Positions 3,575 to 42,897 of a stretch of 64,000 bases of DNA are shown here, one piece after another (position 1 is the first letter of the stretch; each line of letters begins with the position of its first letter). A model generated the notes under the pieces. The model was given only the letters and a program-made list of their open reading frames with translations. It was not told the DNA's origin and did not search any database. Made by a program: the position numbers and the translations under genes. Source of the DNA: an uncultured Cytophagaceae bacterium. GTDB lineage: Bacteria > Bacteroidota > Bacteroidia > Cytophagales > Spirosomataceae. The DNA lies in contig CAIUGL010000103.1 in the NCBI GenBank assembly GCA_903898715.1, positions 1 through 64,000 on the forward strand, given 5' to 3'.

Positions 3575-4555
3575 TTATTCACTTCCCCACATCTCCCCTA
3601 CTTGCCGCGCAATCGCTGGCAAATCCTGCTGTTTCATACAATTGAAATGACCTTTAGGGCAGGTTTTGGTGCCGAAATTAGAACAGGGCTGGCAAGTTAG
3701 ATTAGGTACTATCGCTTGAAAAACGCGTGTTTTAGAGTTTTCGGGCATAAATGGCTCCACTTGGAGGGCTGGCGAAGTCGCACCCCAAATCGCTATCACA
3801 TTTTTCTCAAAAGCGCAGGCGATATATAACATGCCCGTATCATGTGAAATGACCAGACGCGCATCGCGAACCAAAGCGGCGGATTCATGTAAGGAATACA
3901 TTCCACATGTATTTAGTATCCGATCAGGATCTAGTGCCGCAATTTCAGCACCTTCTACCTTTTCCTCTGGACCACCGATCAATACGATGGGATGAGGAAT
4001 AAGCTTGACTAATTGCTTGAGTGATTCCAAGGGCAATTTCTTCGTGGCATACGAGGCACCTATAACCAAGGCCACATATCCTTCGGGGAATAATCCTGAC
4101 ACTTGAGTACCCGCTGGAATGAAGTAATCGAGCCCTTTTCCATCGTACACTACCCCCAGCGGAGCTAATGCGTCCACACTGCGAAGGGAAATATGCCGAT
4201 CGGGCATGCGGTTAACTTGGAATTTGGTCAATAAAAACTTCTCAACGCTCAGTTTGTTATAGGCCAAAACCGGTACACCCAAGGCTAATCGGATGCGAAA
4301 ACTGCGCAGATTCTTGTGTAGGTCAACGATATAATCGAAGGAATAGCCTTTCAACTCTTCAATGGTTGCTGCTAAATCCGAATCAAAATAATGGAATTGG
4401 TCGATGTACGGATTCGCCTCCGTCACGGCCTTCATGGAACGCTTGGTCAACAAATGAATTTCGACGCCGGGCAATTGCTGTTTGGCACAACGGAAAGCCG
4501 CAGATGCCAAAACAATATCTCCAATAGCCGAAAAACGAATGAAAAGTAAGCGCAT
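3575..4555 (-). CDS. Glycosyltransferase family 9 (heptosyltransferase-like)
   Basis: A 326-residue GT-B glycosyltransferase of family 9, the ADP-heptose:LPS transferase family, probably acting in lipopolysaccharide core assembly on the inner face of the cytoplasmic membrane. The N-terminus MRLLFIRFSAIGDIVLAS carries the RF(S)AIGDIV motif. The C-terminal domain has LVISHDTGMLYIACAF and IAIWGATSP, the nucleotide-sugar binding region. A start 14 codons upstream (4597) is possible, but MRLLFIRFSAIGD is the usual beginning of the family. The true sugar donor cannot be told from sequence. It is divergent from the M24 peptidase gene. Confidence 0.88.
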   Translation of the reverse strand: MRLLFIRFSAIGDIVLASAAFRCAKQQLPGVEIHLLTKRSMKAVTEANPYIDQFHYFDSDLAATIEELKGYSFDYIVDLHKNLRSFRIRLALGVPVLAYNKLSVEKFLLTKFQVNRMPDRHISLRSVDALAPLGVVYDGKGLDYFIPAGTQVSGLFPEGYVALVIGASYATKKLPLESLKQLVKLIPHPIVLIGGPEEKVEGAEIAALDPDRILNTCGMYSLHESAALVRDARLVISHDTGMLYIACAFEKNVIAIWGATSPALQVEPFMPENSKTRVFQAIVPNLTCQPCSNFGTKTCPKGHFNCMKQQDLPAIARQVGEMWGSE

Positions 4556-4653
4556 GCGGTGTGATAAACAGCAACAAATTTGCCAAAAAAAGACCACAGA
4601 TTATCAGTTTCGTGGAATTAATTCTAAATTTAGCCGATATACCTCAGACGCAA

Positions 4654-5880
4654 ATGATTGCACGTAGACAATTCCTTCAAAATAGCATCGGGATGAGCGC
4701 CCTAGCTACTCACCTCCCCATTTTTACATCGAATGACCTGCATCCTGCATCACCGATTAGCATCGAAGAACGTTTGGGTCGTATCCAAAAAGCACAATCC
4801 CTACTTCAGCAAAACAAAATGGCTGCCCTCATCATGGATGCAGGAACCAGCATGCAGTATTTTACAGGGCTGAGTTGGTACCCATCCGAGCGAAGCATGT
4901 TAGTGATTTTACCTGCCAAAGGAGAGTTAACCTACATTTGCCCATACTTCGAGGAAGACCGATTACTCGAAATGATTAAAGTTGGCATGCAAATTCGCAC
5001 CTGGCACGAGGATGAAAACCCGTTCCAACTGTGCATCAAAACCATACAAGATCTAGGATTCCGCCAAGGGAAAATTGGCATCGAAGAACAAGCTCGCTTT
5101 TTCATTGTGGACGGACTCCGCAAGGCAGGTCCTTCCTTTGAACTCGTGAGCGGCGATCCCATCTCGGTGGCTTGTCGGCTTATTAAATCCCCCACCGAAA
5201 TCGCCCTCATGCAGCGGGCCAATGACATCACCACCGTAGCCATTCAAGCGGGAATTGCGGCGTTAACAGAAGGTTGCAATCCGCGTCAGATAAGTCAAAA
5301 AATAGCTCAAAAACACACTGAATTGGGCGCCCAGCACGGTTTTGCATCCGTAACTTTTGGGGTGGCGACTTCCTTTCCACATGGTAGTTCCCGACCACAA
5401 GTCTTAAAAAAAGGTGATGTGGTCATGCTTGATTGCGGTTGCCAAGTGGATGGATACGAATCCGATATTACGCGGACCGTGGTTTTTGGTGAGCCATCGC
5501 AGAAACAAATTGACATTTGGAATTTAGAAAAAAGGGCCCAACATGCCGGATTTGAGGCGGCAGTATTGGGTGCGCCATGTGAAAATGTGGATTTGGCGGC
5601 CAGAGGAACTTTAGTCAAAGCGGGTTATGGCCCAGAGTATAAACTACCAGGACTTCCACACCGCACCGGACATGGTATCGGAATGGATGGGCATGAATGG
5701 GGAAATATGGTTAAGGGGAATAAATTACCGCTGCAAGTGGGGATGTGTTTCTCGATTGAACCTACGATTGCGATCCCTGGGGAATTCGGAGTACGACTTG
5801 AAGATTGTGTGTATATGACAGCGCAAGGCCCGAAATGGTTTAGCCAGCCGAGTCCTTCGATCAGTAATCCATTTGCGTAG
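4654..5880 (+). CDS. Tat-exported Xaa-Pro peptidase (M24B family)
   Basis: A 408-residue metallopeptidase with an N-terminal creatinase-like domain (about 45-170) and a C-terminal pita-bread M24 domain. All five expected metal ligands are visible: Asp260 and Asp271 (LDCGCQVDGYESDITRT), His340 (HRTGHGIGMDGHE), Glu369 (FSIEPTI) and Glu383 (GVRLEDCVYM). Such enzymes remove N-terminal residues preceding proline. The first residues MIARRQFLQNSIGMSA form a twin-arginine signal, which suggests export of the folded, metal-loaded enzyme. I prefer the ATG at 4654 over 4561 because it places the twin-arginine motif at the N-terminus. It could instead be a creatinase-type amidinohydrolase, but the peptidase reading is more likely. 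Confidence 0.88.
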   Translation: MIARRQFLQNSIGMSALATHLPIFTSNDLHPASPISIEERLGRIQKAQSLLQQNKMAALIMDAGTSMQYFTGLSWYPSERSMLVILPAKGELTYICPYFEEDRLLEMIKVGMQIRTWHEDENPFQLCIKTIQDLGFRQGKIGIEEQARFFIVDGLRKAGPSFELVSGDPISVACRLIKSPTEIALMQRANDITTVAIQAGIAALTEGCNPRQISQKIAQKHTELGAQHGFASVTFGVATSFPHGSSRPQVLKKGDVVMLDCGCQVDGYESDITRTVVFGEPSQKQIDIWNLEKRAQHAGFEAAVLGAPCENVDLAARGTLVKAGYGPEYKLPGLPHRTGHGIGMDGHEWGNMVKGNKLPLQVGMCFSIEPTIAIPGEFGVRLEDCVYMTAQGPKWFSQPSPSISNPFA

Positions 5881-5904
5881 AGTCGCGACACCTCGCGTTT
5901 TTTT

Positions 5905-5940
5905 CTTTGGCAAACCTTTTCAGGATTGCCAAAGTTTGAG
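5905..5940. repeat. Dispersed palindrome, TTTGGCAAA family
   Basis: CTTTGGCAA ... TTGCCAAAG arms enclose CCTTTTCAGGA and are followed by TTTGAG. The same unit is at 33897-33931, and a diverged unit at 26743-26780. All lie just after the stop codon of a plus-strand gene, as a hairpin at the transcript end would. Confidence 0.7.
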
Positions 5941-5953
5941 ATGCGAAGCTTCA

Positions 5954-6025
5954 ATTCCCCAGACTGAAGTCTGGGGTTATAACCCCTGGCTTTAGCCTGG
6001 GGAATAGACGCGAAGTTTCGCGTCT
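5954..6025. repeat. Dispersed CCCCAG palindrome pair plus GACGCGA hairpin
   Basis: Two hairpins back to back: CCCCAGACT-GA-AGTCTGGGG at 5957-5976 and CCCCTGGCT-TT-AGCCTGGGG at 5983-6002. Together they form one larger inverted repeat bounded by ATTCCCC / GGGGAAT. They are followed by a further hairpin AGACGCGA / TCGCGTCT at 6006-6025. It sits between converging genes and may serve as a bidirectional transcript end. Confidence 0.75.
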
Positions 6026-7474
6026 CTACAAACTAATCTCCTTTGTAACACAGCTCGGAACGTCTTCTGCGTAATGTGAAACAAAGATTAGCGTCATATC
6101 CGATGTCGCCGCAAGCTGATCAATGACATCTTTGACCCGTTGGACTTGTTCTTGGTCTAGACCCTGACAAGGTTCATCCAGAATCAATAACGGTGGATTC
6201 TTCACAAATGCCCGCGCAATCAAAATCATCTTTTGCTCTCCCGTGGAAAGCGTATGAAAAGGACGATTACGTAAATATCCCAAACCAAACATCGCCAAAC
6301 AGGCATCCACCTGCTCAGTTTGTTGCTCGTTCACCTTGCGAGTGACCCCCAATAAATCAAACAAACCCGAAGCCACCACGGCAAACGAAGTTCCTGTTTC
6401 CTTGAAATACAAATGCATTTCCGGACTGACATACCCTATATTCCGTTTGATGTCCCAAATACTTTCCCCCGTACCCCGCTTTCGACCAAACAACGTGATA
6501 TCCTGCGCATAGGATTGTGGATTATCAGCTGTTATCAAACTCAATAAAGTAGACTTTCCTGCGCCATTTGGCCCTTTTAAAACCCAACGCTCCCCTCGGT
6601 TAATCGTCCACGAAAACTGATCTAAAATGGTTTTGGATCCATAACGAATCGTGACGTTTCGTAAAGAAACAAGCGGGGAATCGTCTAAATCCCCAGGCTG
6701 AAGCCCGGGGTTATTATTTTCCTCCTCAGACTGAAGCCCGGGGTTATTATTTCTCTCCCCATGCTGAAGCCCGGGGTTATTATTTCTCTTCTCATGCTGA
6801 AGCATGGAGTTAAAATGTTCATCCTGATGCTTTAGCTTGGGGATCACAGGAACATCCCTGCGAAGCCTATACACTCGATTCACAAATTCAGGAATATCCC
6901 CTCCCGATAAAAACAGGATGAATCGGATGCCTTGCGCTTGTAATTGACTTAATCCTGCCGACAATACCGCCCGGCCAGCTACATCCAAACCTAAATACGG
7001 ATTATCTAATAACAACCAATCGGGCCTTTGGCCTAATGCTTTCACAATCTGCAAGCGTTTATTCTCGCCGTTGGAAAGTTGCAATAATGGCTTGTCCAAC
7101 AAGCCATCTAGCTTAAACATGGTCACATATGCAGCCACATCAAGTTCACCCAATTCCTCTCGAACGGTATACGAATCTTCCGAATCAGCTGAATTAAAAC
7201 GCTGTTGGAGATAAAATTCAGAAATATTACTGCGATTCTTAAAGTGATGTTGCTGCTCCACATACAACACAAATGATCCCTGAAACCACACCTCCCCTTT
7301 TCGAAACAAACGACCTGAAAGTGCTTTGGCCAACGTTGTTTTCCCAGAACCCATCGGCCCTACAACCGCCAAACAATCTTCGGCACCTATCTCAAACGAA
7401 ATGTCTTTCAGCACTTCATGCGGCCCGTAAGAGGCCGATAAATGAATGACATGCGCAACGATTTCTGTGGACAT
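6026..7474 (-). CDS. Tandem-ATPase ABC protein (ModF/PhrA-like)
   Basis: A 482-residue protein with two ABC ATPase domains and no membrane segment. Domain 1 has Walker A GPMGSGKTT (39-47) and signature LSNGE. Its Walker B reads LLLDNP, with Asn in place of the catalytic Glu, and its switch region FLSGGD lacks the His. Domain 2 is complete: GPNGAGKST, LSTGE, LILDEP and FVSHYAED. So domain 2 probably hydrolyses ATP while domain 1 is regulatory. The linker carries an 11-residue repeat (NNNPGLQ followed by four variable residues) encoded by an expanded intergenic palindrome family (6691-6815). No permease gene is adjacent. The start at 7474 is preferred; 7513 is possible but would lie closer to the divergent gene's promoter. 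Confidence 0.85.
   Translation of the reverse strand: MSTEIVAHVIHLSASYGPHEVLKDISFEIGAEDCLAVVGPMGSGKTTLAKALSGRLFRKGEVWFQGSFVLYVEQQHHFKNRSNISEFYLQQRFNSADSEDSYTVREELGELDVAAYVTMFKLDGLLDKPLLQLSNGENKRLQIVKALGQRPDWLLLDNPYLGLDVAGRAVLSAGLSQLQAQGIRFILFLSGGDIPEFVNRVYRLRRDVPVIPKLKHQDEHFNSMLQHEKRNNNPGLQHGERNNNPGLQSEEENNNPGLQPGDLDDSPLVSLRNVTIRYGSKTILDQFSWTINRGERWVLKGPNGAGKSTLLSLITADNPQSYAQDITLFGRKRGTGESIWDIKRNIGYVSPEMHLYFKETGTSFAVVASGLFDLLGVTRKVNEQQTEQVDACLAMFGLGYLRNRPFHTLSTGEQKMILIARAFVKNPPLLILDEPCQGLDQEQVQRVKDVIDQLAATSDMTLIFVSHYAEDVPSCVTKEISL
6683..6846. repeat. In-frame 33-bp repeat array built from the CCCCAG palindrome
   Basis: Consecutive copies of a unit beginning with a CCCCAGGCT-like arm, then GA, AGCCCGGGG and TTATTATTTC (starts near 6691, 6724, 6757 and 6790), plus an opposite-orientation half unit (GATGCTTTAGCTTGGGG) at about 6825-6842. 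The period is 33 bp (11 codons), so the frame of the ABC gene is kept. The unit matches the free palindromes at 5954-6005 and 12634-12700. Confidence 0.85.
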
Positions 7475-7542
7475 AGGGGAAATAAACAGCCAACAATTTA
7501 CCGCATTTTTCATACATTTAGCCTGCTTTAAACCGATAAACC

Positions 7543-9057
7543 ATGAAAAAACTATTCCTAATAGGCCTAATAAGCTTGTTGGCCCTACCCGCCTTCACCC
7601 AATCATTACCTCGCAGTACACCCGAAGCGGAAGGAATTTCATCTGCAGCGATCCAACAATACATCGAAAAAATTGACCCCAAACGCCATGAATTACATTC
7701 CTATATGCTCATTCGGCATGGGAAGGTGGTTTCCGAGGCGTGGTGGAAACCGTATGCGGCGGATAAAGTGCATTCGATGTACAGCGTTTCCAAGAGCTGG
7801 ACTTCTACAGCAATTGGTTTTGCAGTCGCAGAAAAACGACTCAGCGTTCAAGATAAAGTACTTTCATTTTTCCCGGAATATGCAGACCTAAAGGACAAAC
7901 CTTTTCTTCAAGATTTACGCGTCCAAGATCTATTGACGATGTCAGTTGGCCATGAAAAAGAACCACTTCGCAGTGTCATCGTCATGCAGCCCGACTGGAT
8001 TCGTGGTTTCTTGAATCACCCGATTGTAGCCAAACCTGGTACGAAATTCCTTTATAACACGCTGGCAACCTATATGCTTTCCGCCATTATTCAGAAAGTG
8101 ACTGGCGAAACGACTTTGGCTTATTTAAAACCACGCTTATTAGATCCATTACATATTACTGGAATTGATTGGGAATCGGATCAAAAAGGCATCAACGTAG
8201 GTGGCTGGGGGATCCGCGTCAAAACGGAAGACATGGCTAAACTGGGATTACTCTATCTAAACAAAGGAAAGTTCGAAGGCAAACAAATACTTCCTGCTGC
8301 TTGGGTGGAAGAGGCAACCAGCAAGCACATCGACCAAGAGCCGGATGCATCGGCAGAAAAACGGGCAACTGGACAATATGCAGATTGGATTCAAGGATAT
8401 GGCTATCAGTTTTGGCGGAGCCGGAATAATTCATTTCGTGGAGATGGGGCCTTTGGCCAGTATATCTTAATGATGCCTGAACAAGATGCGGTTTTGATTA
8501 TTACCTCAGAGTCACATGACTTACCAGATGACTTGAACCAAGTGTGGCAACATTTATTGCCGGAATTTCAAGCAAAAGCATTAGCTCCCAATCCAAAGGC
8601 TTTAGCTTCATTAAAGCAATTTAATGCGTCGAGACAACTGGATGCTCCTACAAATGAGCTTCCATTCAAAAACTTACAAGCAGCGATTACCTTAGAAAAG
8701 AATCAGTTTGATTTTGCGCGCATGCAAATCAAAACCAAAGGAGAAGCGGCCGAATTAATCATCACGACCAAAGATTCTACCCAGCATGCCTTTAAACTAG
8801 GATTCAGAACTTGGGGTATTGGAAAATCACAACTGGTTGGCCCCTACATGCTACGCGCAGCACGGGTGGATTTAGCCAAAATAGCCCCTTTTGATTATGC
8901 AGGTAGCTACCGACAATTAGACGATCAATCGCTCGAAATCACGCTTCGCTACTTCGAAAGCCCCCATCGCTGGACCTTTACATGGAAACCAGAGGTGGTC
9001 GAGGTGGTGAATTCATTTGAGCCGCAAACGAAGATTGAGATGAGAGGTAAGAAGTGA
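7543..9057 (+). CDS. Exported serine hydrolase, class C beta-lactamase fold
   Basis: A 504-residue protein with a cleavable signal (MKKLFLIGLISLLALPAFTQ). The catalytic S-x-x-K is Ser81-Val-Ser-Lys84 and the second motif is YNT in KFLYNTLATYML. The family includes esterases, D-aminopeptidases and DD-peptidases as well as beta-lactamases, so the substrate is unknown; it probably acts in the periplasm. About 130 residues after the catalytic domain form a C-terminal beta-rich extension. The last codons (MRGKK) and the TGA stop lie within the AGAGGTR heptanucleotide run that follows, so the present C-terminus may have been created by repeat spread. Divergent from the ABC gene with 68 bases between starts. 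Confidence 0.82.
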   Translation: MKKLFLIGLISLLALPAFTQSLPRSTPEAEGISSAAIQQYIEKIDPKRHELHSYMLIRHGKVVSEAWWKPYAADKVHSMYSVSKSWTSTAIGFAVAEKRLSVQDKVLSFFPEYADLKDKPFLQDLRVQDLLTMSVGHEKEPLRSVIVMQPDWIRGFLNHPIVAKPGTKFLYNTLATYMLSAIIQKVTGETTLAYLKPRLLDPLHITGIDWESDQKGINVGGWGIRVKTEDMAKLGLLYLNKGKFEGKQILPAAWVEEATSKHIDQEPDASAEKRATGQYADWIQGYGYQFWRSRNNSFRGDGAFGQYILMMPEQDAVLIITSESHDLPDDLNQVWQHLLPEFQAKALAPNPKALASLKQFNASRQLDAPTNELPFKNLQAAITLEKNQFDFARMQIKTKGEAAELIITTKDSTQHAFKLGFRTWGIGKSQLVGPYMLRAARVDLAKIAPFDYAGSYRQLDDQSLEITLRYFESPHRWTFTWKPEVVEVVNSFEPQTKIEMRGKK

Positions 9058-9167
9058 GAGGTGAGAGGTAAGAAGTAAGAGGTGAGAGGTGAGAGGTGAG
9101 AGGTGAGAGGTAAGAGGTGTTTTGATTTAGTAAAACTCTTACTTCTTACCTCTTACTTCTCACCTCC
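9037..9167. repeat. AGAGGTR heptanucleotide runs in inverted orientation
   Basis: A forward run of GAGAGGT/AAGAGGT/AAGAAGT units occupies 9037-9119 and a reverse run (ACTTCTT, ACCTCTT, ACTTCTC) 9136-9167. The RNA could fold into a long imperfect stem with a loop of about 16 bases, just after the stop of the hydrolase gene. I see no other feature between 9168 and 9251. Confidence 0.8.
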
Positions 9168-9251
9168 TAAAGATTTCGTCGCAAAATTTTGACCAAAGGA
9201 TACAATTATCAAAAAGGATTCCTATACTTGAGTTAACAAACCTGTACTCCT

Positions 9252-10253
9252 ATGAAAAAGAATTACAATAACTCCCGTCGGCAATTTTTAGCAGCCGGCT
9301 CCCTTGCCTCTTTAGGCCTTTTATTTGCCAAACCAGCAGCCTTTGCCTTTGGCTCAGCGAAACCAGATTCGAAATTTGGTGGCGTTCAAATCGGTTGCAT
9401 CACGTATTCATACCGCAGCATGCCAGGATCCATTGATGATATCATCGGATACTTAACACAATGCGGCATTTCAGCGACTGAATTAATGGGCGATGCGGTT
9501 GAGGAATATGCTGGCAAGCCAGTAAATCCGGTACAGATGCGTTGGGTTCCAGGCCAGCCGCGTCCTACGCTCACCGACGAGCAACGTGCAGCCATGAAAA
9601 AATACCAAGAAGATGTTAAGGCATGGCGTGAATCAGTTTCTATGGACAAATTCAAAGAAGTTCGCGCGAAATTGGATAAAGCTGGCATTAGTGTTTATGC
9701 CTATAAGCCCAATGCCTTTGGCCCGAACAATTCAGATGGCGAAGTAGAATATGCATTAAAATCTGCTAAGGTTTTAGGGGCTAAATCGGTGACGGTTGAA
9801 TTGCCAACTGACCCGAAACAAACCCAACGTCTAGGAGATCTAGGTGCGAAACACGGTATCTATTTCGGATATCACGCCCATTTACAAGTAAAGGACACGG
9901 CTTTTGATGAAGCTTTGGCACAATCACCTTATAACTCCATGAACTTAGATGCTGGTCACTACATCGCGGTAGGTGCGCCACATACAACGGCAAGTTTATT
10001 AGCCTTACTAGAAGCGAAAAAAGATCGTATCACTTCATTGCACATCAAAGACCGTACATCGAAAGAAAACGGGGCGAAAAACTTGGTGTGGGGCACAGGA
10101 GATACTCCATTAAAGGAGATCTTAACGGCCATGAAGAAAAACAAATACAAATTCCCGGCTACAATCGAATTGGAATACGACATTCCAGCTGGTTCAGATG
10201 CCGTGGCAGAAGTGAAAAAATGTGTGGAATACGCGAAAGCAATCTTAGTCTAA
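9252..10253 (+). CDS. Tat-exported sugar phosphate isomerase/epimerase-like protein
   Basis: A 333-residue xylose-isomerase-like TIM-barrel protein (AP endonuclease 2 superfamily). The N-terminus has a twin-arginine motif (SRRQFLAAG) and a hydrophobic stretch ending AFAFG, so it is exported folded. Barrel motifs visible are IGCITYSYRSMPG near the first strand, VTVELPTD, the metal-site region MNLDAGHYIAVG, SLHIKDRT and the last-strand glutamate in ATIELEYDIPAG. Many Bacteroidota encode such exported proteins near sugar-degrading enzymes; the GH43 and Gfo/Idh genes close by fit that. The exact reaction is not known. The 3' end overlaps the NnrD remnant on the other strand by nine bases. Confidence 0.85.
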   Translation: MKKNYNNSRRQFLAAGSLASLGLLFAKPAAFAFGSAKPDSKFGGVQIGCITYSYRSMPGSIDDIIGYLTQCGISATELMGDAVEEYAGKPVNPVQMRWVPGQPRPTLTDEQRAAMKKYQEDVKAWRESVSMDKFKEVRAKLDKAGISVYAYKPNAFGPNNSDGEVEYALKSAKVLGAKSVTVELPTDPKQTQRLGDLGAKHGIYFGYHAHLQVKDTAFDEALAQSPYNSMNLDAGHYIAVGAPHTTASLLALLEAKKDRITSLHIKDRTSKENGAKNLVWGTGDTPLKEILTAMKKNKYKFPATIELEYDIPAGSDAVAEVKKCVEYAKAILV

Positions 10254-10523
10254 CAGCCTAATTTCACTCAAATGATCAATCAAGTCGGAGGCCACTAAAC
10301 TGGCCTTCGATTTTTTTTGTATCGCCAAATCCCCCGATAAACCATGAATATAAGCGCCTAGGCGAACAGCCACATCAGGTGCATATTCTTGCGCACATAA
10401 AGCGGCGCCAACTTTACCTGGACTTCCGGCGATAATCAACACATGCCCGAAAGATTTTTTATGTCCATCGGGCTGTCGGTGTTGTTTAATCTGATTTATC
10501 CAGGGAAGATCTATTCGATTCAT
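10245..10523 (-). pseudogene. nnrD: Internally deleted remnant of ADP-dependent NAD(P)H-hydrate dehydratase
   Basis: A 92-codon open frame that joins the two ends of a YjeF C-terminal (NnrD) domain. Residues 20-45 match the domain's start (HKKSFGHVLIIAGSPGKVGAA). Residues 47-90 match its very end (LGAYIHGLSGDLAIQKK, then SLVASDLIDHL). Everything between, including the family's GTGDVLTG catalytic motif and the nucleotide site, is absent. The full domain is about 280 residues, so roughly 180 residues are missing with the frame kept. It cannot be catalytically active as seen. It starts with ATG at 10523 and ends inside the neighbouring gene's stop. A functional copy would be expected elsewhere in the genome. 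Expression is unknown. Confidence 0.75.
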
Positions 10524-10545
10524 AGACCTAAATATAGGTATTTAA

Positions 10546-11550
10546 TTAATAGGCCGTGATCGTTTCGATTGATCCATCCGCGCGATACTTCAATTCAGTT
10601 ACTTTGATATTGCGTAAATGCGTTCTGCCTGATAATTGTACGTCATGGAAATAGAGATACCATTTGCCATTTTGCTCGACTATGGAATGGTGATTGGTCC
10701 AACCTTTAACCGGTTTTAAAATCACACCTTGATACGTAAATGGCCCATAAGGACTTGATCCTGTTGCGTAGGCAATGTTATGGGTGTCGCCTGTGGAATA
10801 GCTGAAATAGTACTTCCCGTTATATTGATGGACGAAAGCAGCCTCAAAAAACCGACGGTCATGATCGGAGGATAAAAGTACTTTTCCCGCCGCATCCAAA
10901 ATCTGCACATCACGTGGCTTTTCGGCTAACACCTTCATATTTTTATCGAGCTTAGCCACCTTGGCCATCAATGCCGGCTGATCGCTTGCCGGTTGGCTAT
11001 CATCATTCGCCATATAATGCCCCATTTTCCAGCGTTGCAATTGGCCTCCCCAAATACCCCCAAAATACATGTAATGAGATCCATCAGCATCTTTAAATAC
11101 ACAAGGATCAATGCTGTAAGTACCTTCGATGTAATTAGGCTCCGCTTTAAATGGGCCTTCCGGTTTAGCCGAACTAGCTACTCCGATGCGGAAAATGCCT
11201 TCTTTATCTCTGGCAGGGAAATATAAATAATATTGTCCTTTGGATTCTGCTGCATCTGGTGCCCAAAGCATCTTACCCGCCCATGGAATATCTGCTAATT
11301 TTAATGCGACTCCGTGATCTGTCACAGGGCCAGCGGGCGTAGTTTGTGATAGCACATGATAATCATTCATCGCAAAATGGCTGCCCATGTCATCTTCTTT
11401 GACACCTGCATCAATGTCGTGCGATGGATAAATGTAGATTTTTCCTTGAAATAAGTGGGCAGAAGGATCTGCCGTGTAGATATGCGAAACAAGTGGTTGC
11501 TGAGCAAATGCCCCAAAACTCACGAAAGCAAAAACGAGTATTTTTTTCAT
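10546..11550 (-). CDS. Glycoside hydrolase family 43 protein
   Basis: A 334-residue five-bladed beta-propeller hydrolase with a signal peptide (MKKILVFAFVSFGAFA|QQ), so periplasmic or surface-exposed. GH43 enzymes cleave arabinose- or xylose-containing polysaccharides. The triad can be placed: base Asp28 in YTADPSAHLF, pKa-tuning Asp in YSIDPCVFKD, and acid Glu in RRFFEAAFVHQY. The sequence WAPDAAESKGQYYLYFPA is also characteristic. The start at 11550 gives the signal peptide; the frame is open to 11571. Divergent from the Gfo/Idh gene with 47 bases between starts, so the promoter region is shared. Substrate (arabinan, xylan or other) cannot be decided from sequence. Confidence 0.88.
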   Translation of the reverse strand: MKKILVFAFVSFGAFAQQPLVSHIYTADPSAHLFQGKIYIYPSHDIDAGVKEDDMGSHFAMNDYHVLSQTTPAGPVTDHGVALKLADIPWAGKMLWAPDAAESKGQYYLYFPARDKEGIFRIGVASSAKPEGPFKAEPNYIEGTYSIDPCVFKDADGSHYMYFGGIWGGQLQRWKMGHYMANDDSQPASDQPALMAKVAKLDKNMKVLAEKPRDVQILDAAGKVLLSSDHDRRFFEAAFVHQYNGKYYFSYSTGDTHNIAYATGSSPYGPFTYQGVILKPVKGWTNHHSIVEQNGKWYLYFHDVQLSGRTHLRNIKVTELKYRADGSIETITAY

Positions 11551-11597
11551 CTGAATAGGTTTGTATATCAAAGCCCTAAATTTCTTATTTTTACTTC

Positions 11598-12632
11598 ATG
11601 AAAGCAATTCAAACCGCATTATTATCCTATGGGATGTCGGGACGCATTTTTCACGCCCCTTTCCTTGAAATTCATCCCGGCTTCGAGCTCGTTGGCTCCT
11701 ACGAACGCAGCCAAAAAAACATTCAAAAAGCCTATCCTGGAACACACTCGTATGATTCGCTAGACGAAGTCATCCAAGATGCTGATATTGAATTAGTTAT
11801 CGTCAATACCCCCATCCCCACGCATTTCGAATATGCCTCCAAAGCATTGAAAGCTTGTAAACATGTCGTAGTTGAAAAAGCATTTACGAACTCGACAGCC
11901 GAAGCATTGGAATTGCAACAAATAGCTTCAGAGGTTGGAAAACATATTTTTGTCTACCAAAATCGCCGTTGGGATTCAGATTTTTTAACGGTTAAAAAAA
12001 TATACGAATCGGGCCAACTGGGCGAATTGGTTGAAGCGGAATTTCACTTTGATCGCTTTAATGGAATCAAATCGCCCAAAATGCACAAGGAAGTTCCTGG
12101 GCCGGGGGCTGGAATCATATTTGATTTGGGGCCGCATATCATTGATCAGGCCTTGCATTTGTTTGGAAAACCGACGCATGTATTTGCCGACTTGCGTAAA
12201 ACACGTCCGGGTACGGAGGTAGAAGATTTGTTTGAGATATTACTGTATTACCCAGAAATGCGTGTTCGATTGAAGGCAGGCTATTATTTCAAAGCGCCGA
12301 TTCCTGCGTTTCAGTTGCATGGCAAATTGGGCAGCTTTATCAAGACTCGTTCAGACCGACAAGAAATTGACCTCGATGCAGGTCTAAAGCCACAAGGAAA
12401 AGAATGGGGACTGGATAGTCCTTCTGATTACGGTTTGATACATGTAGATGGTTCGAATCCTGACCGGGTAGTTTCTGAAAAAGGCGATTTTATGGCCTTT
12501 TATGAAAATGTTTATCAATCTTTACGCGGCGATGCGACACCATCGGTTTCCGTTCAAGATGGAATCAATAGCATGCGGGTGATCGATGCGGCGATGGAAA
12601 GTAGTCGGGAGAAAAAAGTGATTGCTTATTAG
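11598..12632 (+). CDS. Gfo/Idh/MocA family oxidoreductase
   Basis: A 344-residue NAD(P)-dependent sugar or polyol dehydrogenase-like protein, cytoplasmic. The N-terminal Rossmann part shows LLSYGMSGRIFHAPFL (Gly motif), then VNTPIPTHFEYASKALKAC and VVEKAF, the family's EKP-like position. The C-terminal domain includes YQNRRWDSDFLTVKKI and GIIFDLGPHIIDQALHLFG, the usual catalytic His region. It resembles the YdgJ subgroup; the substrate is not predictable. With the divergent GH43 gene it may belong to sugar use. Confidence 0.88.
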   Translation: MKAIQTALLSYGMSGRIFHAPFLEIHPGFELVGSYERSQKNIQKAYPGTHSYDSLDEVIQDADIELVIVNTPIPTHFEYASKALKACKHVVVEKAFTNSTAEALELQQIASEVGKHIFVYQNRRWDSDFLTVKKIYESGQLGELVEAEFHFDRFNGIKSPKMHKEVPGPGAGIIFDLGPHIIDQALHLFGKPTHVFADLRKTRPGTEVEDLFEILLYYPEMRVRLKAGYYFKAPIPAFQLHGKLGSFIKTRSDRQEIDLDAGLKPQGKEWGLDSPSDYGLIHVDGSNPDRVVSEKGDFMAFYENVYQSLRGDATPSVSVQDGINSMRVIDAAMESSREKKVIAY

Positions 12633-12633
12633 G

Positions 12634-12700
12634 AATTCCCCAGACTAAAGTCTGGGGTTAATAACATAGATAATAACCCCAGACTTTAGTCTGGGGAATT
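12634..12700. repeat. Complete CCCCAG palindrome unit with 27-bp arms
   Basis: Arms 12634-12660 and 12674-12700 are perfect inverted copies, and each arm is itself a hairpin (CCCCAGACT-AA-AGTCTGGGG). It starts one base after the stop of the oxidoreductase and ends 13 bases before the ATG of the Crp-like regulator, so it is the whole intergenic region. It is the best-preserved copy in the window. Confidence 0.9.
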
Positions 12701-12713
12701 TAAAAACAAAGCC

Positions 12714-13343
12714 ATGGAATTAGATATACTTGCCAATTTCGAGCCTGAGTTAAAGAAGAAGATCCAACAAGTAGGTGTGATCCGAAAATTTCAAGCGGAT
12801 GATTTTCTGATGAAAACAGGCCAAAGTATTCGCTCGGCCGTATTAGTTACCAAAGGAATCATTAAAGTTTTTCGTGAGGATGATGAGGGAAATGAAGTAT
12901 TTATGTACAACCTGCACCCGGGAGAAGCCTGTGCGATTTCCATGACCTGCGCATCCCGCAATCTCAATAGCCAGATTATGGCGAAGGCATTGGTGGACAC
13001 GGAAGTCCTTACCATCCCAGTCGAATTAATGGATGAATGGGCTGCCAAATATAAATCTTGGTATCAGTTCGTTTTAGAAACTTATCGTTCGCGATTTGAG
13101 GAATTGTTGGATACACTTGACCACATTGCCTTTCGTAATTTGGACGAGCGTTTGTTATGGTATTTAAAACAACATCAAAAGAGTTTAAAAAGTAATGTCA
13201 TCAAGGTTTCATTTACAGATATTGCTACGGAATTAAACTCCTCGCGTGAGGTTATTTCGCGGTTGATGAAAAAACTTGCCGAAAAAGGATTTATTAAAAT
13301 CAATAAAAACCAAATTGAAATCATCAATTTGAAGGGACTGTGA
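12714..13343 (+). CDS. Crp/Fnr-family transcription regulator, probable regulator of the sulfur island
   Basis: A 209-residue regulator with an N-terminal cNMP-binding-like beta barrel (FLMKTGQSIRSAVLVTKGIIKVF, then NLHPGEACAISMTCASRN), a dimer helix, and a C-terminal winged helix (SFTDIATELNSSREVISRLMKKLAEKGFI, about 163-195). No N-terminal four-cysteine cluster is present, so an Fnr-type iron-sulfur sensor is unlikely. The signal could be a cysteine (for example Cys79 or Cys85 region), haem or an unknown ligand. It stands first in the sulfur island and its stop codon lies inside a Crp-type operator that precedes the porin gene. The regulatory assignment is inference from position and operator phasing. 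Confidence 0.88.
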   Translation: MELDILANFEPELKKKIQQVGVIRKFQADDFLMKTGQSIRSAVLVTKGIIKVFREDDEGNEVFMYNLHPGEACAISMTCASRNLNSQIMAKALVDTEVLTIPVELMDEWAAKYKSWYQFVLETYRSRFEELLDTLDHIAFRNLDERLLWYLKQHQKSLKSNVIKVSFTDIATELNSSREVISRLMKKLAEKGFIKINKNQIEIINLKGL

Positions 13344-13382
13344 TATACATCACGACTGAAAATTAAATTAAGTGACAATTTG
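13339..13382 (+). promoter_or_regulatory. Crp/Fnr-type operator and -7 element before the porin gene
   Basis: TGTGAT-ATAC-ATCACG at 13339-13354, overlapping the regulator's TGA stop. The -7-like ACAATTTG ends at 13382, 35.5 bp from the operator centre, which is class II (about -41.5) spacing. Confidence 0.7.
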
Positions 13383-13402
13383 CATGCCTAAACACAATAA
13401 GC

Positions 13403-14815
13403 ATGCCTAAACATTTCACCTTAATTTTCATATTCCTTTTGATTAATACGGCACATATAGTAGCCCAACATCAAGAAATTCATACGACACCGCATCTTTG
13501 GAAAGGCAAAAAAAGTGTGGCGGAAGATTCAAGCTCCCTCCTATTTGCCTTCAAACATGGGAAAGTACATGGTAACCTAAGGTATTTTTTCATGGCCACT
13601 GAAAACCAAGGACATCTCACCGATGCCTATGCACATGCTGCAGGTGGAGGATTATTCTACGAAACTGCTTCATTTAAAGGCTTTCAAATGGGTGTGGGTG
13701 GTTATTTTATCTATAATGTTGGCTCTTCCAACATGGCCCAAATTGATCCATATACCCAAACTGCGAGTCGATACGAGACCTCATTATTTGATTTGGAGGA
13801 CCTGACAAATAAAAATGATTTAGATCGTCTCGAGGAACTATACCTGAAATACAATTTCAAAAAATCACATATTACAGCTGGAAAACAATTAATTAATACG
13901 CCATTTATCAACCTGCAGGACGGCCGGATGCGACCGACTGAAGTAGGTGGATTGTATGGGGAAATCTTTCCCGGTAAAAAAAATAAATTGGAAGGTGGCT
14001 ACTTGTATGAAATCTCCCCACGCGGTACCGTGGATTGGTATGGAATCGGTGAATCCATCGGAATTTACCCTAATGGAGTCAATACCAATGGAGTAAAAGG
14101 AAATTATAAGGGAAATATTGAGTCCAAAGGAATTTACTTATTGGGTTATACGCACCAACTACCCCAAAACCAATCCATCAAATTTTGGAATGTATTAGTT
14201 GAAAATGTATTCAATACCAGCATGATCCAATGGGATTGGAAAAAAAATGAATGGGTGGCAGGATTGCAATACACGCATCAACAAGCGGTCAATCAAGGAG
14301 GCAATGAGGATCCATCAAAAACCTATTTTTCTCCAGATCAAAAGTCAAACGTGATAAGTGCTAAAATAGGCTATGAAAAATCTGCCTGGAATACCTCTTT
14401 AAGCTATACGAGAATTACAGCGGATGGACGTTATTTAATGCCACGCGAATGGGGCCGTGATCCATTTTACACCTTTATGCCACGTGAACGGAATGAAGGA
14501 TTTGGTGATTTGCATGCGTTAGTTGGCAAAGTAATCTACACCTTCCCAGATTTTCCTCTAAAGGCGAATTTGAGTTATGGATACTTCCAATTACCTGATG
14601 TGAAGAATTATGCGTTGAATAAATATGGCTTACCGAGTTATACCCAATTGAATGTAGATTTAACGTATGAATTCATCAACTTCCTGGAGGGGCTTGAAAT
14701 TCAAGCCTTATATGTGCATAAATCAAATCAAGGCGAAACATATCAGAACGAAAAATACATCATTAACAAGGTCAATATGAGTAATTTTAACCTTATTATG
14801 AACTTCCATTTTTGA
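13403..14815 (+). CDS. OprD-like outer-membrane porin
   Basis: A 470-residue outer-membrane beta-barrel protein with signal peptide (MPKHFTLIFIFLLINTAHIVAQ) and a terminal phenylalanine (NLIMNFHF), as expected for BAM substrates. Internal strands alternate hydrophobic and aromatic residues, and KKSHITAGKQLINTPFINLQDGRM resembles the OprD-family constriction region. It probably admits small anions or organic acids. Its promoter carries the operator shared with the thiosulfate genes, which suggests a sulfur-oxyanion or related solute. The sequence ATGCCTAAACA is duplicated at 13384 and 13403; the upstream copy is out of frame and stops after eight codons at 13410, so it overlaps the true start. 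Confidence 0.75.
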   Translation: MPKHFTLIFIFLLINTAHIVAQHQEIHTTPHLWKGKKSVAEDSSSLLFAFKHGKVHGNLRYFFMATENQGHLTDAYAHAAGGGLFYETASFKGFQMGVGGYFIYNVGSSNMAQIDPYTQTASRYETSLFDLEDLTNKNDLDRLEELYLKYNFKKSHITAGKQLINTPFINLQDGRMRPTEVGGLYGEIFPGKKNKLEGGYLYEISPRGTVDWYGIGESIGIYPNGVNTNGVKGNYKGNIESKGIYLLGYTHQLPQNQSIKFWNVLVENVFNTSMIQWDWKKNEWVAGLQYTHQQAVNQGGNEDPSKTYFSPDQKSNVISAKIGYEKSAWNTSLSYTRITADGRYLMPREWGRDPFYTFMPRERNEGFGDLHALVGKVIYTFPDFPLKANLSYGYFQLPDVKNYALNKYGLPSYTQLNVDLTYEFINFLEGLEIQALYVHKSNQGETYQNEKYIINKVNMSNFNLIMNFHF

Positions 14816-17982: not shown

Positions 17983-18035
17983 ACTGATTACTGATTACTG
18001 ATTACTGATTACTGATTACTGATTACTGACTACTG
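17983..18035. repeat. GATTACT heptanucleotide tandem array
   Basis: About seven near-perfect tandem copies of a 7-bp unit (ACTGATT), the last ones diverging to ACTGACT. It fills most of the 112-base gap before the YeeE/YedE genes. Confidence 0.9.
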
Positions 18036-18063
18036 AAAACTAAAAACTAAATTTTAACTTACT

Positions 18064-25592: not shown

Positions 25593-25889
25593 ATGAGCAA
25601 ATTTGCAGAACTATTGAAATCCCCAGAACCCGTTTTAGTTGACTTTTCAGCTGAATGGTGTGGGCCATGTAAACAGTTAAAACCAATTTTAGAACAACTA
25701 AAATCCAAGGTGGGCGAATCCGCCAAAATCATCAAAATAGATGTGGATAAAAACAGATCTTTGGCTGATAAATTCCAAATTCGATCTGTTCCTACACTGA
25801 TACTATTCAAGGATGGAAAATCCGTTTGGAGACAATCAGGGGTAATTCCGGCGAGTACGTTGGAAGGAATTATTAAACAGTATAAATAG
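25593..25889 (+). CDS. Thioredoxin
   Basis: A 98-residue thioredoxin with WCGPC active site (Cys23, Cys26) and the cis-proline segment RSVPTLILFKDG. It lacks a signal peptide, so it is cytoplasmic. The length is slightly short but complete. Position between two rhodanese genes suggests it reduces persulfides or regenerates sulfurtransferases, though a general thioredoxin role is equally possible. Confidence 0.93.
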   Translation: MSKFAELLKSPEPVLVDFSAEWCGPCKQLKPILEQLKSKVGESAKIIKIDVDKNRSLADKFQIRSVPTLILFKDGKSVWRQSGVIPASTLEGIIKQYK

Positions 25890-25893
25890 TTAT

Positions 25894-25968
25894 CAGTCGC
25901 TAGTCACTAGTCGACAGTCGCTAGTCGTCAGTCATCAGTCGCTAGTCGTCAGTCACTAGTCGTTAGTT
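25894..25968. repeat. GTCNNTA heptanucleotide tandem array
   Basis: About ten contiguous 7-bp units of the form GTC-(GCT/ACT/GTC/ATC/GAC)-A, such as GTCGCTA, GTCACTA, GTCGTCA and GTCGTTA. It starts four bases after the thioredoxin stop. Confidence 0.88.
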
Positions 25969-26742: not shown

Positions 26743-26853
26743 CTTTGGCAAAGCTAAACGCTTTGCCAAATTTTGAGGCGTTTTCATGCCGATTCCATAG
26801 GGCTAAAACCTAGGGATTTTTTTGTTTATAACCCAAGTTTTAACCTGGGAATT
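26743..26853. repeat. Diverged TTTGGCAAA and CCCCAG palindromes
   Basis: A TTTGGCAAAG / CTTTGCCAAA hairpin at 26744-26770 is followed by decayed CCCCAG-type hairpins at 26792-26817 (ATAGGGCTAAAACCTAGGG) and 26828-26853. The order of the two families is the same as at 5905-6005. Confidence 0.65.
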
Positions 26854-33824: not shown

Positions 33825-33828
33825 ATTT

Positions 33829-34060
33829 AGACGTTGGACGTTGGACGTTGGACGTTAGAGGTTAGAACTAAGAGGTAAGAGGTGAGAGGTTAGTCTCTTT
33901 GGCAAACCTTTCAGGATTGCCAAAGTTTGAGCCGCATGCAATGCGGCGATTATCCTTAGACGTTAGACATAAGAAGTTAGAGGTGAGAGTTAAGAGATCA
34001 TTAAGCATACCTTCGGACTTCGGACTATTTTCCTCCGGACTGGTTACTAGCGACTAAACA
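33829..34060. repeat. Mosaic of four repeat families in a 320-base gene-free gap
   Basis: The gap 33825-34144 holds no gene. It contains GACGTTG units (33833-33855), AGAGGTR units (33856-33892), a TTTGGCAAA palindrome (33897-33931) followed by GCCGCATGCAATGCGGC, again GACGTTA and AGAGGTG units (33958-34000), CGGACTT / CGGACTA units (34013-34040) and a short GACTAGC-like stretch (34043-34058). From 34061 to 34144 nothing is recognised. Confidence 0.8.
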
Positions 34061-34144: not shown

Positions 34145-35083
34145 ATGAAATCGTCCATTCTACGATATTGCTATCTTATACTATTTCTTATTTTATTAAC
34201 TATGGGCATACCCTTTACAAATGCCCAAGGACAATTGATCAAGGTTTTCGACGCAGAATCACATGTCGCAGTCCCTTATGCGACTATTCACTTTTTAGCA
34301 CAAAATATTTCCTATTCAACCAATGAAAATGGCTTCTTTTTAGTTTCGACTAAACTCCGAGAACAAAAGGATTCGTTGCGCATCAGCTGCGTTGGTTATA
34401 CACCTCAAACAATTTTGCTCGGAAATAACCCCAAAATGCTTGAAATTCAACTCCAAGCCGCACAAATTGAATTAACTGAAATTCGAGTTCATCCCCACAA
34501 ATTCAACCTATTTAATACAGAAAAAGCACATATGAAAGGCTCCATGGGCGGTGTAGCTGAAGAAGAATACATGGTTGGCTTAAGCTTTGATTCTACCCAA
34601 TTTGCCCATAAAATGATTGAATCGGTCATGGTGTATATTGCCAAAGGAGGAGATTATAAAGTCCCATTTCGTATTCGATTATTCCGCTTACGGAATGGAA
34701 AACCAACCTCAGAGGAGTTATATCAAACAAATTGGGTAGTACGTGCCACAAAAACCGGGTGGAACACCTTCGACATTCCTAGCAAGGATGTATACATCCC
34801 TGAATCTGGCTGCCTGATTGCAGTCGAATGGCTCGAATTTCAAAACATCGATTACTCGAAAATCGATTATTCCAAAAGAGATTTCAATTTAGATTTTAGT
34901 AAGTATAAAGGACAATATCTTGGCGTGGGCTACACAAAAAAGCCTAATTCTAGCCTTGGTTTTTATCGGAATATTAAATCAAAAGGTGTTTGGCATTCCT
35001 CCGATCTACTATTTGGTAATTTTAAAAATCCTGTATTTCACAATAGGATATTAAGGCCGATGATTGCCTTAAAATTGAGGTAA
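34145..35083 (+). CDS. Exported protein with carboxypeptidase-regulatory-like domain
   Basis: A 312-residue protein with a signal peptide (hydrophobic LILFLILLTMGIPFTNAQG). Residues 28-110 are a CarboxypepD_reg-like beta sandwich (QLIKVFDAESHVAVPYATI, then TNENGFFLV and LRISCVGYTP), the domain that often precedes TonB-dependent receptors. No barrel follows; the rest is a conserved but unnamed beta-rich region. Function unknown, probably periplasmic or outer-membrane attached. The TAA stop is inside GAGGTAAGA, the start of a heptanucleotide run. ATG 34145 is preferred for its signal peptide. Confidence 0.72.
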   Translation: MKSSILRYCYLILFLILLTMGIPFTNAQGQLIKVFDAESHVAVPYATIHFLAQNISYSTNENGFFLVSTKLREQKDSLRISCVGYTPQTILLGNNPKMLEIQLQAAQIELTEIRVHPHKFNLFNTEKAHMKGSMGGVAEEEYMVGLSFDSTQFAHKMIESVMVYIAKGGDYKVPFRIRLFRLRNGKPTSEELYQTNWVVRATKTGWNTFDIPSKDVYIPESGCLIAVEWLEFQNIDYSKIDYSKRDFNLDFSKYKGQYLGVGYTKKPNSSLGFYRNIKSKGVWHSSDLLFGNFKNPVFHNRILRPMIALKLR

Positions 35084-35275
35084 GACGTTGGACGTTAGAG
35101 GTTAGAGGTTAGAACTAAGAGGTAAGAGGTCATTAAACTTACCTTCGGACTCCGGACTATTTTCCTTCGGACTGATGACTAGCGACTGACGACTAGTGAC
35201 TGATGACTAGCGACTGCCCACTCTTACCTCTTACCTCTTACCTCTCACCTCTTACCTCTTACCTCTCACCTCTCC
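35084..35275. repeat. Heptanucleotide mosaic filling the gap between converging genes
   Basis: GACGTTR (35084-35097), AGAGGTT/AGAGGTA (35096-35130), CGGACTC (35144-35173), GACTAGC / GACTGAT units (35173-35216) and reverse CTTACCT / CTCACCT units (35221-35273), in that order. The AGAGGTR run and its reverse complement flank the rest and could pair. No other feature is seen. Confidence 0.88.
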
Positions 35276-40225: not shown

Positions 40226-40417
40226 AGGGCCGAAGGCAAATAAGTCCGAAGCGAAATAGCATGTAGGCAGTTAGTCCGAAGGGAAGACTTAAACAATTAC
40301 CCCTCCGGACTCCGGACTACCTCTTACCTCTTACCTCTTACTTCTCACCTCTTACCTCTCACCTCTTACATCTCACTTCTTAATTCCAGCGTCTAACGTC
40401 TAACGTCCAACGTCTAA
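40187..40417. repeat. Heptanucleotide mosaic over the repressor's 3' end and the gap before tex
   Basis: AGTCCGA-type units at 40187-40282, partly coding, face reverse CTCCGGACTCCGGACT at 40303-40319. They are followed by CTTACCT / CTCACCT units (40321-40380) and GTCTAAC / GTCCAAC units (40390-40415). No promoter is clear, and no other feature is seen. Confidence 0.85.
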
Positions 40418-42870: not shown

Positions 42871-42897
42871 TAACCCCAGGCATCAGCCTGAGAAGCC
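42871..42897. repeat. Half unit of the CCCCAG palindrome family
   Basis: AACCCCAGGC-AT-CAGCCTGAG between the HMA gene and the small metal-binding gene; a single, decayed hairpin. Confidence 0.5.

Follow-up and report, generated by a model that had tools for sequence, protein, structure and literature searches.

The window analysed here, a 64,000-nt stretch of DNA from an uncultured Cytophagaceae bacterium, encodes on its minus strand, at 6029–7513, a ModF-like protein with two ABC ATPase domains in an open reading frame (ORF) of 495 aa. Its best NCBIfam family is ModF (NF008186), which matches residues 35–493 with 357.1 bits; this score lies under the cut-off of 459, and the protein is therefore ModF-like only. 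The true start of the ORF is probably the methionine at codon 15 (MSTEIV). The codons ahead of it, 7472–7513 (MKNAVNCWLF), are the best conserved DNA in a codon alignment of seven species, with a codon conservation even stronger than that of the last linker unit described below. Such unusual DNA conservation ahead of MSTEIV suggests a control region, which the ABC gene may have in common with the divergent gene at 7543. The predicted structure (32 sequences) has a mean pLDDT of 77.6 and low segments at residues 1–13, 221–274 and 388–390. The long segment 221–274, with a pLDDT below 50, coincides with residues encoded by a palindromic repeat.

This palindrome-derived linker lies between the two ATPase domains (6690–6846, minus strand, residues ~223–275), and its DNA consists of palindromes of a REP-like intergenic family, namely four 33-bp units and a worn fifth hairpin. 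Tandem Repeats Finder reports an array at 6690–6803 with a period of 33, 3.5 copies and 88% matches, and a second repeat search returns the same 33-bp spacing. Each unit contains a 20-nt palindrome, CCCCRGRC-NNNN-GYCTGGGG with variants, and encodes 11 residues in frame, NNNPGLQ plus four, as the preliminary description of this DNA had correctly read from the sequence. The frame is indeed kept throughout the array, and the 33-bp period of 'about four' units was confirmed; the hairpins, on the other hand, number five. All are on the minus strand. The 3′-most unit, H3d (6691–6710, CCCCGGGCTTCAGCCTGGGG), is identical in four species; H3c (6724–6743) and H3b (6757–6776) are tandem copies; and H3a (6790–6809) and H5 (6823–6842) are presumed to be the inverted pair from which the array began, H3a as its 3′ and H5 as its 5′ member. 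H5 is inverted and worn, with 5 of 8 Watson-Crick pairs left. H5 retains 7 or 8 pairs in five other genomes (G003, G010, G031, G035 and G059; G000 is the window's own genome). Rfam gave no match at gathering scores within 4000–14000.

Matches to CCCCAGRCTNNAGYCTGGGG with up to three mismatches number eight in the window, three of them in the gene, where 0.05 are expected (100 shuffles); in the whole of G000 there are 37 sites with up to three mismatches and none for a reversed-pattern control. The free copies listed in that description are present, although mostly not as single palindromes. Those just downstream of the ABC gene (5953–6006, palindromes at 5957 and 5983) and upstream of a Crp-like gene (12634–12700, palindromes at 12638 and 12677) are inverted pairs. 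The copy listed at 26792 belongs to what is, by eye, a pair (26794–26852) eroded beyond the reach of the three-mismatch search, and only that at 42874–42893 is single, if imperfect. Palindromes occupy the same place in G035 at 5953–6006, 12634–12700 and 42874–42893, and in G010 also at 12634–12700. A second palindrome family (approximately GAGACGCGAnnnTTCGCGTCTC) often stands directly outside the REP-like pairs, at 6004–6028 and at outer ends at L107, L110, L130 and L143, and a third hairpin (approximately CTTTGGCAAACC..GGATTGCCAAAG), seen at 5907–5940 and 33904–33931, turns up repeatedly in relatives, close to the ends of genes and next to palindromes.

The free family has the anatomy of REP elements, minus the GTAG/CGTC tag and the Y1 transposase. 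The loci of G000, G035 and G010 comprise 78 pairs within 90 nt (one inside the ABC gene's array) and 42 singles (one inside the G035 orthologue). By eye, the pairs are mostly inverted and their ends are asymmetric, with AAT preceding and TTAT succeeding each unit; at L076, L122 and L135 free palindromes are tandemly repeated together with their flanks. A site-by-site survey of five genomes (the listed sites of G000, G003 and G031, together with 64 of the 72 in G035 and 79 of the ~90 in G010) placed 249 of 273 sites outside ORFs of at least 100 aa, 12 in the ABC linker and 12 in other ORFs. Among the 201 sites whose neighbours could be classified, counting pair members apart and using mechanical ORFs of at least 130 aa, 98 are flanked by codirectional ORFs, 90 by convergent and 13 by divergent ones. 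Dispersal mainly between genes, inverted dimers and rarity between divergent ORFs are thus all found, as in REP/REPIN elements; the end tag (by eye) and a cognate Y1 transposase are not.

The distribution of the family across genomes is narrow. Counted on the forward strand with up to two mismatches, the in-gene copies included, there are 34 palindromes in G000, 46 in G003, 90 in G010, 6 in G011, 41 in G022, 49 in G031, 72 in G035 and 1 in G059. The same tolerance gives none in 29 of the other 30 genomes of the genus and one, on one strand, in G032; a reversed control gives one on each strand in G010 and one on one strand in each of G021 and G030. A stricter pattern, applied to a draw of 241 genomes of the order, matches two of them, G000 (the sole member of the eight-species clade in that draw) and one other with a single copy. 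The eight genomes counted first are those whose ABC orthologue has a palindrome linker. The pond metagenome-assembled genome G059 (L154) has a decayed pair in its linker and one recognisable palindrome genome-wide, so that the family may have eroded there; with this linker beside a single palindrome, and six palindromes in G011, linker and free family are uncoupled in number.

The mobility that the preliminary description attributed to the repeat has the dispersed copies as its sole basis, and no mobiliser was found. The Y1 transposase (RAYT, PF01797) gave no match in any of the eight clade genomes, which are 71–89% complete, with a positive E. coli control. PF01797 matches do occur in 12 of 38 genus genomes (10 above the cut-off); this transposase was rejected as the present mobiliser, given that those 12 genomes have no palindromes (one, on one strand, in G032) and that the clade genomes lack a PF01797 match. 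For 13 of the 20 free clusters of G000, both flanks and a palindrome recur at the corresponding position in G035 or G010. This is a minimum, since the sequence of the relatives was examined only near palindromes of their own, and much of the family was therefore present before the clade split. The family looks old and mostly fixed. One free pair, near-identical in three species together with its flanks, lies just upstream of a conserved gene start (L069 4536–4591, L105 2901–2955, L138 1534–1589) and may have a function of its own.

Among the 273 sites in five genomes, the ABC gene is the only gene body accepted as entered. The other 12 of the 24 in-ORF sites were judged to be artefacts of start calls, gaps or spurious ORFs: at L064, L098, L108, L211 and L230 the palindrome precedes the recognised domain and lies no further in than codon ~30; the ORF at L104 crosses a stretch of N; and those at L234 and L245 (106 and 155 aa) have no Pfam match and overlap longer opposite frames. 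As to further genes with NNPGLQ-type repeats, a prospect raised at the outset, a protein search with the linker peptide in seven genomes (without G059) recovered the ABC gene from six of them and had no hit in G035; its one additional match was weak, a 65-aa frame in G022 with an E value of 0.335. The absence of stop codons noted earlier is nothing out of the ordinary: of the 408 frames of 68 free pairs, 94 are open, as are 35 of the 136 that have the offset used by the gene. Open frames are common enough in free pairs that no special coding ability is needed.

Comparison across species, with one genome per species, provides the framework for the history of the linker. When a tree is built from the two domains and the linker is left out, all eight species with palindrome linkers fall into one clade of freshwater Bacteroidota (Cytophagales) with an SH-aLRT of 100, and a sister clade of nine rows with an unrelated 51-aa linker joins it with a support of 96; the tree was made by a quick method and comes with warnings on the long outgroup branches L025 and L183. 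Linkers were printed for the eight members, 22 other genomes of the genus and one other of the order; the genus orthologues in G009, G015, G020, G024 and G033 were seen as matches stopping at the linker, and there was no clear ABC orthologue in G008, G014 or G026. Selection on the protein would have been indicated by distant orthologues with the same peptide in unrelated codons; the linkers printed from outside the clade are unrelated, and within the clade the codons themselves are common to the members, with a same-residue identity of 0.90 for the last unit in seven species. The earlier reading of an intergenic palindrome that entered a gene and expanded in frame is therefore supported, the family being nearly confined to the clade with the palindrome linker.

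Linkers differ within the clade in the number and spacing of hairpins. There are two in G035, G059, G011, G031 and G022, three in G003 and G010, and five in G000. The first two hairpins in the gene start 39 nt apart in G003, G010, G035 and G059, where the pair is laid out approximately as ATCCCC..GGGGTTAT-spacer-ATAACCCC..GGGGAT, roughly the layout of free inverted pairs; the start-to-start spacing of the 78 free pairs is 39 nt in one and 40 nt in eight. This resemblance makes an inverted pair the likely starting form. In G011, G022, G031 and G000 the first two hairpins start 33 nt apart. In G011, G022 and G031 the junction resembles one between copies of the unit, and these linkers may have passed through a form with three hairpins before losing one by deletion; given the 33-nt spacing in all four genomes, the order of duplication and deletion has more than one reading.

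Very probably, these observations are explained by a REP-like dimer that inserted once, in frame, in the ancestor of the clade and was tolerated in the linker; single hairpins were then gained and lost, and some correction took place at the level of the hairpin. An inverted pair (hairpin, ~19-nt spacer, inverted hairpin) would have entered the short inter-domain linker in the common ancestor of this small freshwater Cytophagales clade, in an open frame, and the insertion would have been tolerated, since the linker probably needs only to be a flexible tether, and then fixed. The 3′ hairpin would later have been duplicated as a 33-bp in-frame unit, giving three hairpins in G003 and G010 and five in G000, and the two-hairpin form would have been kept, shortened or decayed in G035, G059, G011, G022 and G031. 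Correction between arms and units may partly keep the hairpins matched and alter amino acids as well. The observations themselves establish a single clade, DNA common to its members, differing unit numbers, a position in the linker and a family nearly confined to the clade; we infer insertion over other routes, the sequence of duplications and losses, slippage and template switching as the means, and tolerance over benefit. The linker outside the palindromes cannot be aligned to that of the sister clade, and there is no alignable empty-site sequence; replacement of an older linker is therefore as possible as a clean insertion.

The source of the palindromes in the gene could have lain close by. 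A free pair (5957–6002) stands just downstream of the gene, with same-placed palindromes in G035, and palindromes also follow the ABC gene in other relatives; gene conversion or local duplication from this pair, ~700 bp downstream, might accordingly have seeded the linker in place of transposition. We regard this route as unlikely, as nothing beyond the palindromes themselves is recognised in the linker (by eye); the GAGACGCG..CGCGTCTC palindrome that adjoins the free pair, for one, has no counterpart there.

Arrival of a dimer that was simply tolerated does not account for all the conservation seen. The last unit has a same-residue codon identity of 0.903 across seven species; elsewhere in the gene the mean is 0.556 and the maximum 0.793 (377 windows of 11 codons behind the presumed start, with the 5′ leader, the linker and G059 left out); this figure is a rank and not a probability, because the species are related. 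When windows of eight codons are used and leader and linker are still included, 27 of 441 are as high as the core (0.877). The codon conservation of the last unit exceeds what plain tolerance predicts. As peptide, too, no part of the linker is better conserved than this unit: NPGLQPGD is unchanged in G000, G003, G010 and G031 and differs by one residue in G022 (KPGLQPGD) and G011 (NPGIQPGD). If NNNPGLQ were selected as a functional linker motif, the DNA palindrome would be a by-product of its codons. This is highly improbable: the codons are conserved and not the residues alone, the same palindrome family is found between genes, G035 and G059 retain the protein without the peptide, and the segment is predicted with low structural confidence.

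Conservation at the level of DNA could also mean that the in-gene palindromes are kept as functional hairpins in mRNA or DNA, for instance as an inter-domain translation pause or a protein-binding site. The codon identity of 0.90 against no more than 0.79 elsewhere speaks for such a function, as do a folding z-score of -4.06 (none of 200 shuffles as stable), compensated changes in the stems and, within the commonest unit, a G-T pair of the stem that reads G-U in the mRNA. Hairpin integrity, however, varies widely, with Watson-Crick pairs down to 5 of 8 in H5 and 4 in H3d of G011, 4 in H5 of G022, 3 in H3a of G059 and 5 in H5 of G000, and hairpin number ranges from two to five. Moreover, free copies in the same place in several species also look well conserved (by eye), so that conservation is not peculiar to the gene. 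A hairpin function is, on balance, improbable, and tolerated insertion of the dimer followed by hairpin gain, loss and correction is still the preferred explanation.

What keeps the arms matched may be a process that acts on DNA. In the in-gene stems, 127 of 168 pairs are Watson-Crick and 18 are G-T on the coding strand, that is, G-U in the mRNA; this is better than chance, since only 7 of 5000 shuffles of the arms matched as well, or 26 of 5000 when the 18 distinct hairpins alone were used. Paired differences, such as AGAC/GTCT versus ATGC/GCAT, change the protein accordingly (RLKS versus MLKH, PGLQPG versus PMLQHG). A fully paired variant, CCCCATGCTTCAGCATGGGG, occurs in the ABC gene of G010 and G035 and, with up to one mismatch, nowhere else in seven genomes (without G059), which fits a correction templated by hairpins inside the gene. 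A free variant two letters away, CCCCATGCTTTAGCGTGGGG, has three copies in G000 and three in G003, and a free source for CCCCATGCTTCAGCATGGGG is therefore possible. The coding hairpins are worn in G011 and G059, the genomes poorest in free copies, and also in G022, which has 41 copies; with G022 worn, this amounts to a hint of a genome-wide matching process. A tentative and rather speculative extension would be that DNA structure, not protein selection, steers the amino acids of the linker: template-switching correction between arms and units would make the paired differences within the gene, 33-bp steps would be gained and lost in frame, and coding hairpins would fade with the family (six copies in G011, one in G059).

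Insertion of palindromic elements into genes in frame has precedents. Intragenic REPs are described by Di Nocera et al. 2013 (PMC3733652) as short palindromes, many of them dimers, mostly between convergent or codirectional genes and sometimes in frame within them; inserts inside genes consist of dimers or groups in over half of the cases, 43–82 residues are encoded by clusters, and flexible linkers are proposed as insertion sites. The ABC-linker family resembles that description in its short palindromes, many dimers, mainly intergenic placement and in-frame presence in an ORF (PMC3733652). It differs in its AAT/TTAT ends without a GTAG or CGTC tag (by eye), in the single gene affected, in the lack of a transposase gene found here and in forms that can be compared across eight species. 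Inverted dimers and short, asymmetric-ended palindromes dispersed between genes are also features of REPIN/RAYT systems as described (PMC6006769), which the family departs from in that the clade genomes have no Y1 transposase match (0 of 8).

Rickettsia palindromic elements (RPEs), the best-known case and according to a review (PMC10969869) ~150 bp long with 44 in-gene integrations in R. conorii, likewise bring palindromic DNA in frame into protein genes. Many unrelated genes are affected in their case, whereas here a ~60-bp pair probably entered one gene among the surveyed sites and 33-bp unit copies followed. In coding inverted repeats of yeast, both arms are reported to change together through template switching, with altered amino acids (PMC8604942); the inverted repeat of the ABC linker, unlike these, began as an intergenic element, with template switching as a proposed cause of its paired changes. 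PARCELs are described as coding palindromic repeats of another kind (PMC2996958). Literature searches showed neither the ABC-linker palindrome family nor its in-frame linker case. In-frame REPs and RPEs being already known, what is added here is an unusually readable history, whose steps can be compared among eight species. Protein segments derived from non-coding repeats are usually visible only after the fact; a repeat-bearing clade, a repeat-free sister and forms with two to five hairpins make insertion, in-frame amplification, decay and correction separable in one protein. They also offer a natural experiment on what determines a linker sequence, the structure of the DNA or the function of the protein.

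Repeats of other kinds also occur in the window. Tandem arrays with a period of 7 bp (or 14 or 21 bp) lie at 9037–9119, 17983–18036, 25888–25967, 33827–33866, 35077–35130, 35170–35273 and 40318–40382; their heptamers differ (GAGGTGA, ACTGATT, AGTCGCT, GACGTTG, CTCTTAC), and some arrays are mutually inverse. A repeat of ~48 bp is present in four degenerate copies at 637–821.
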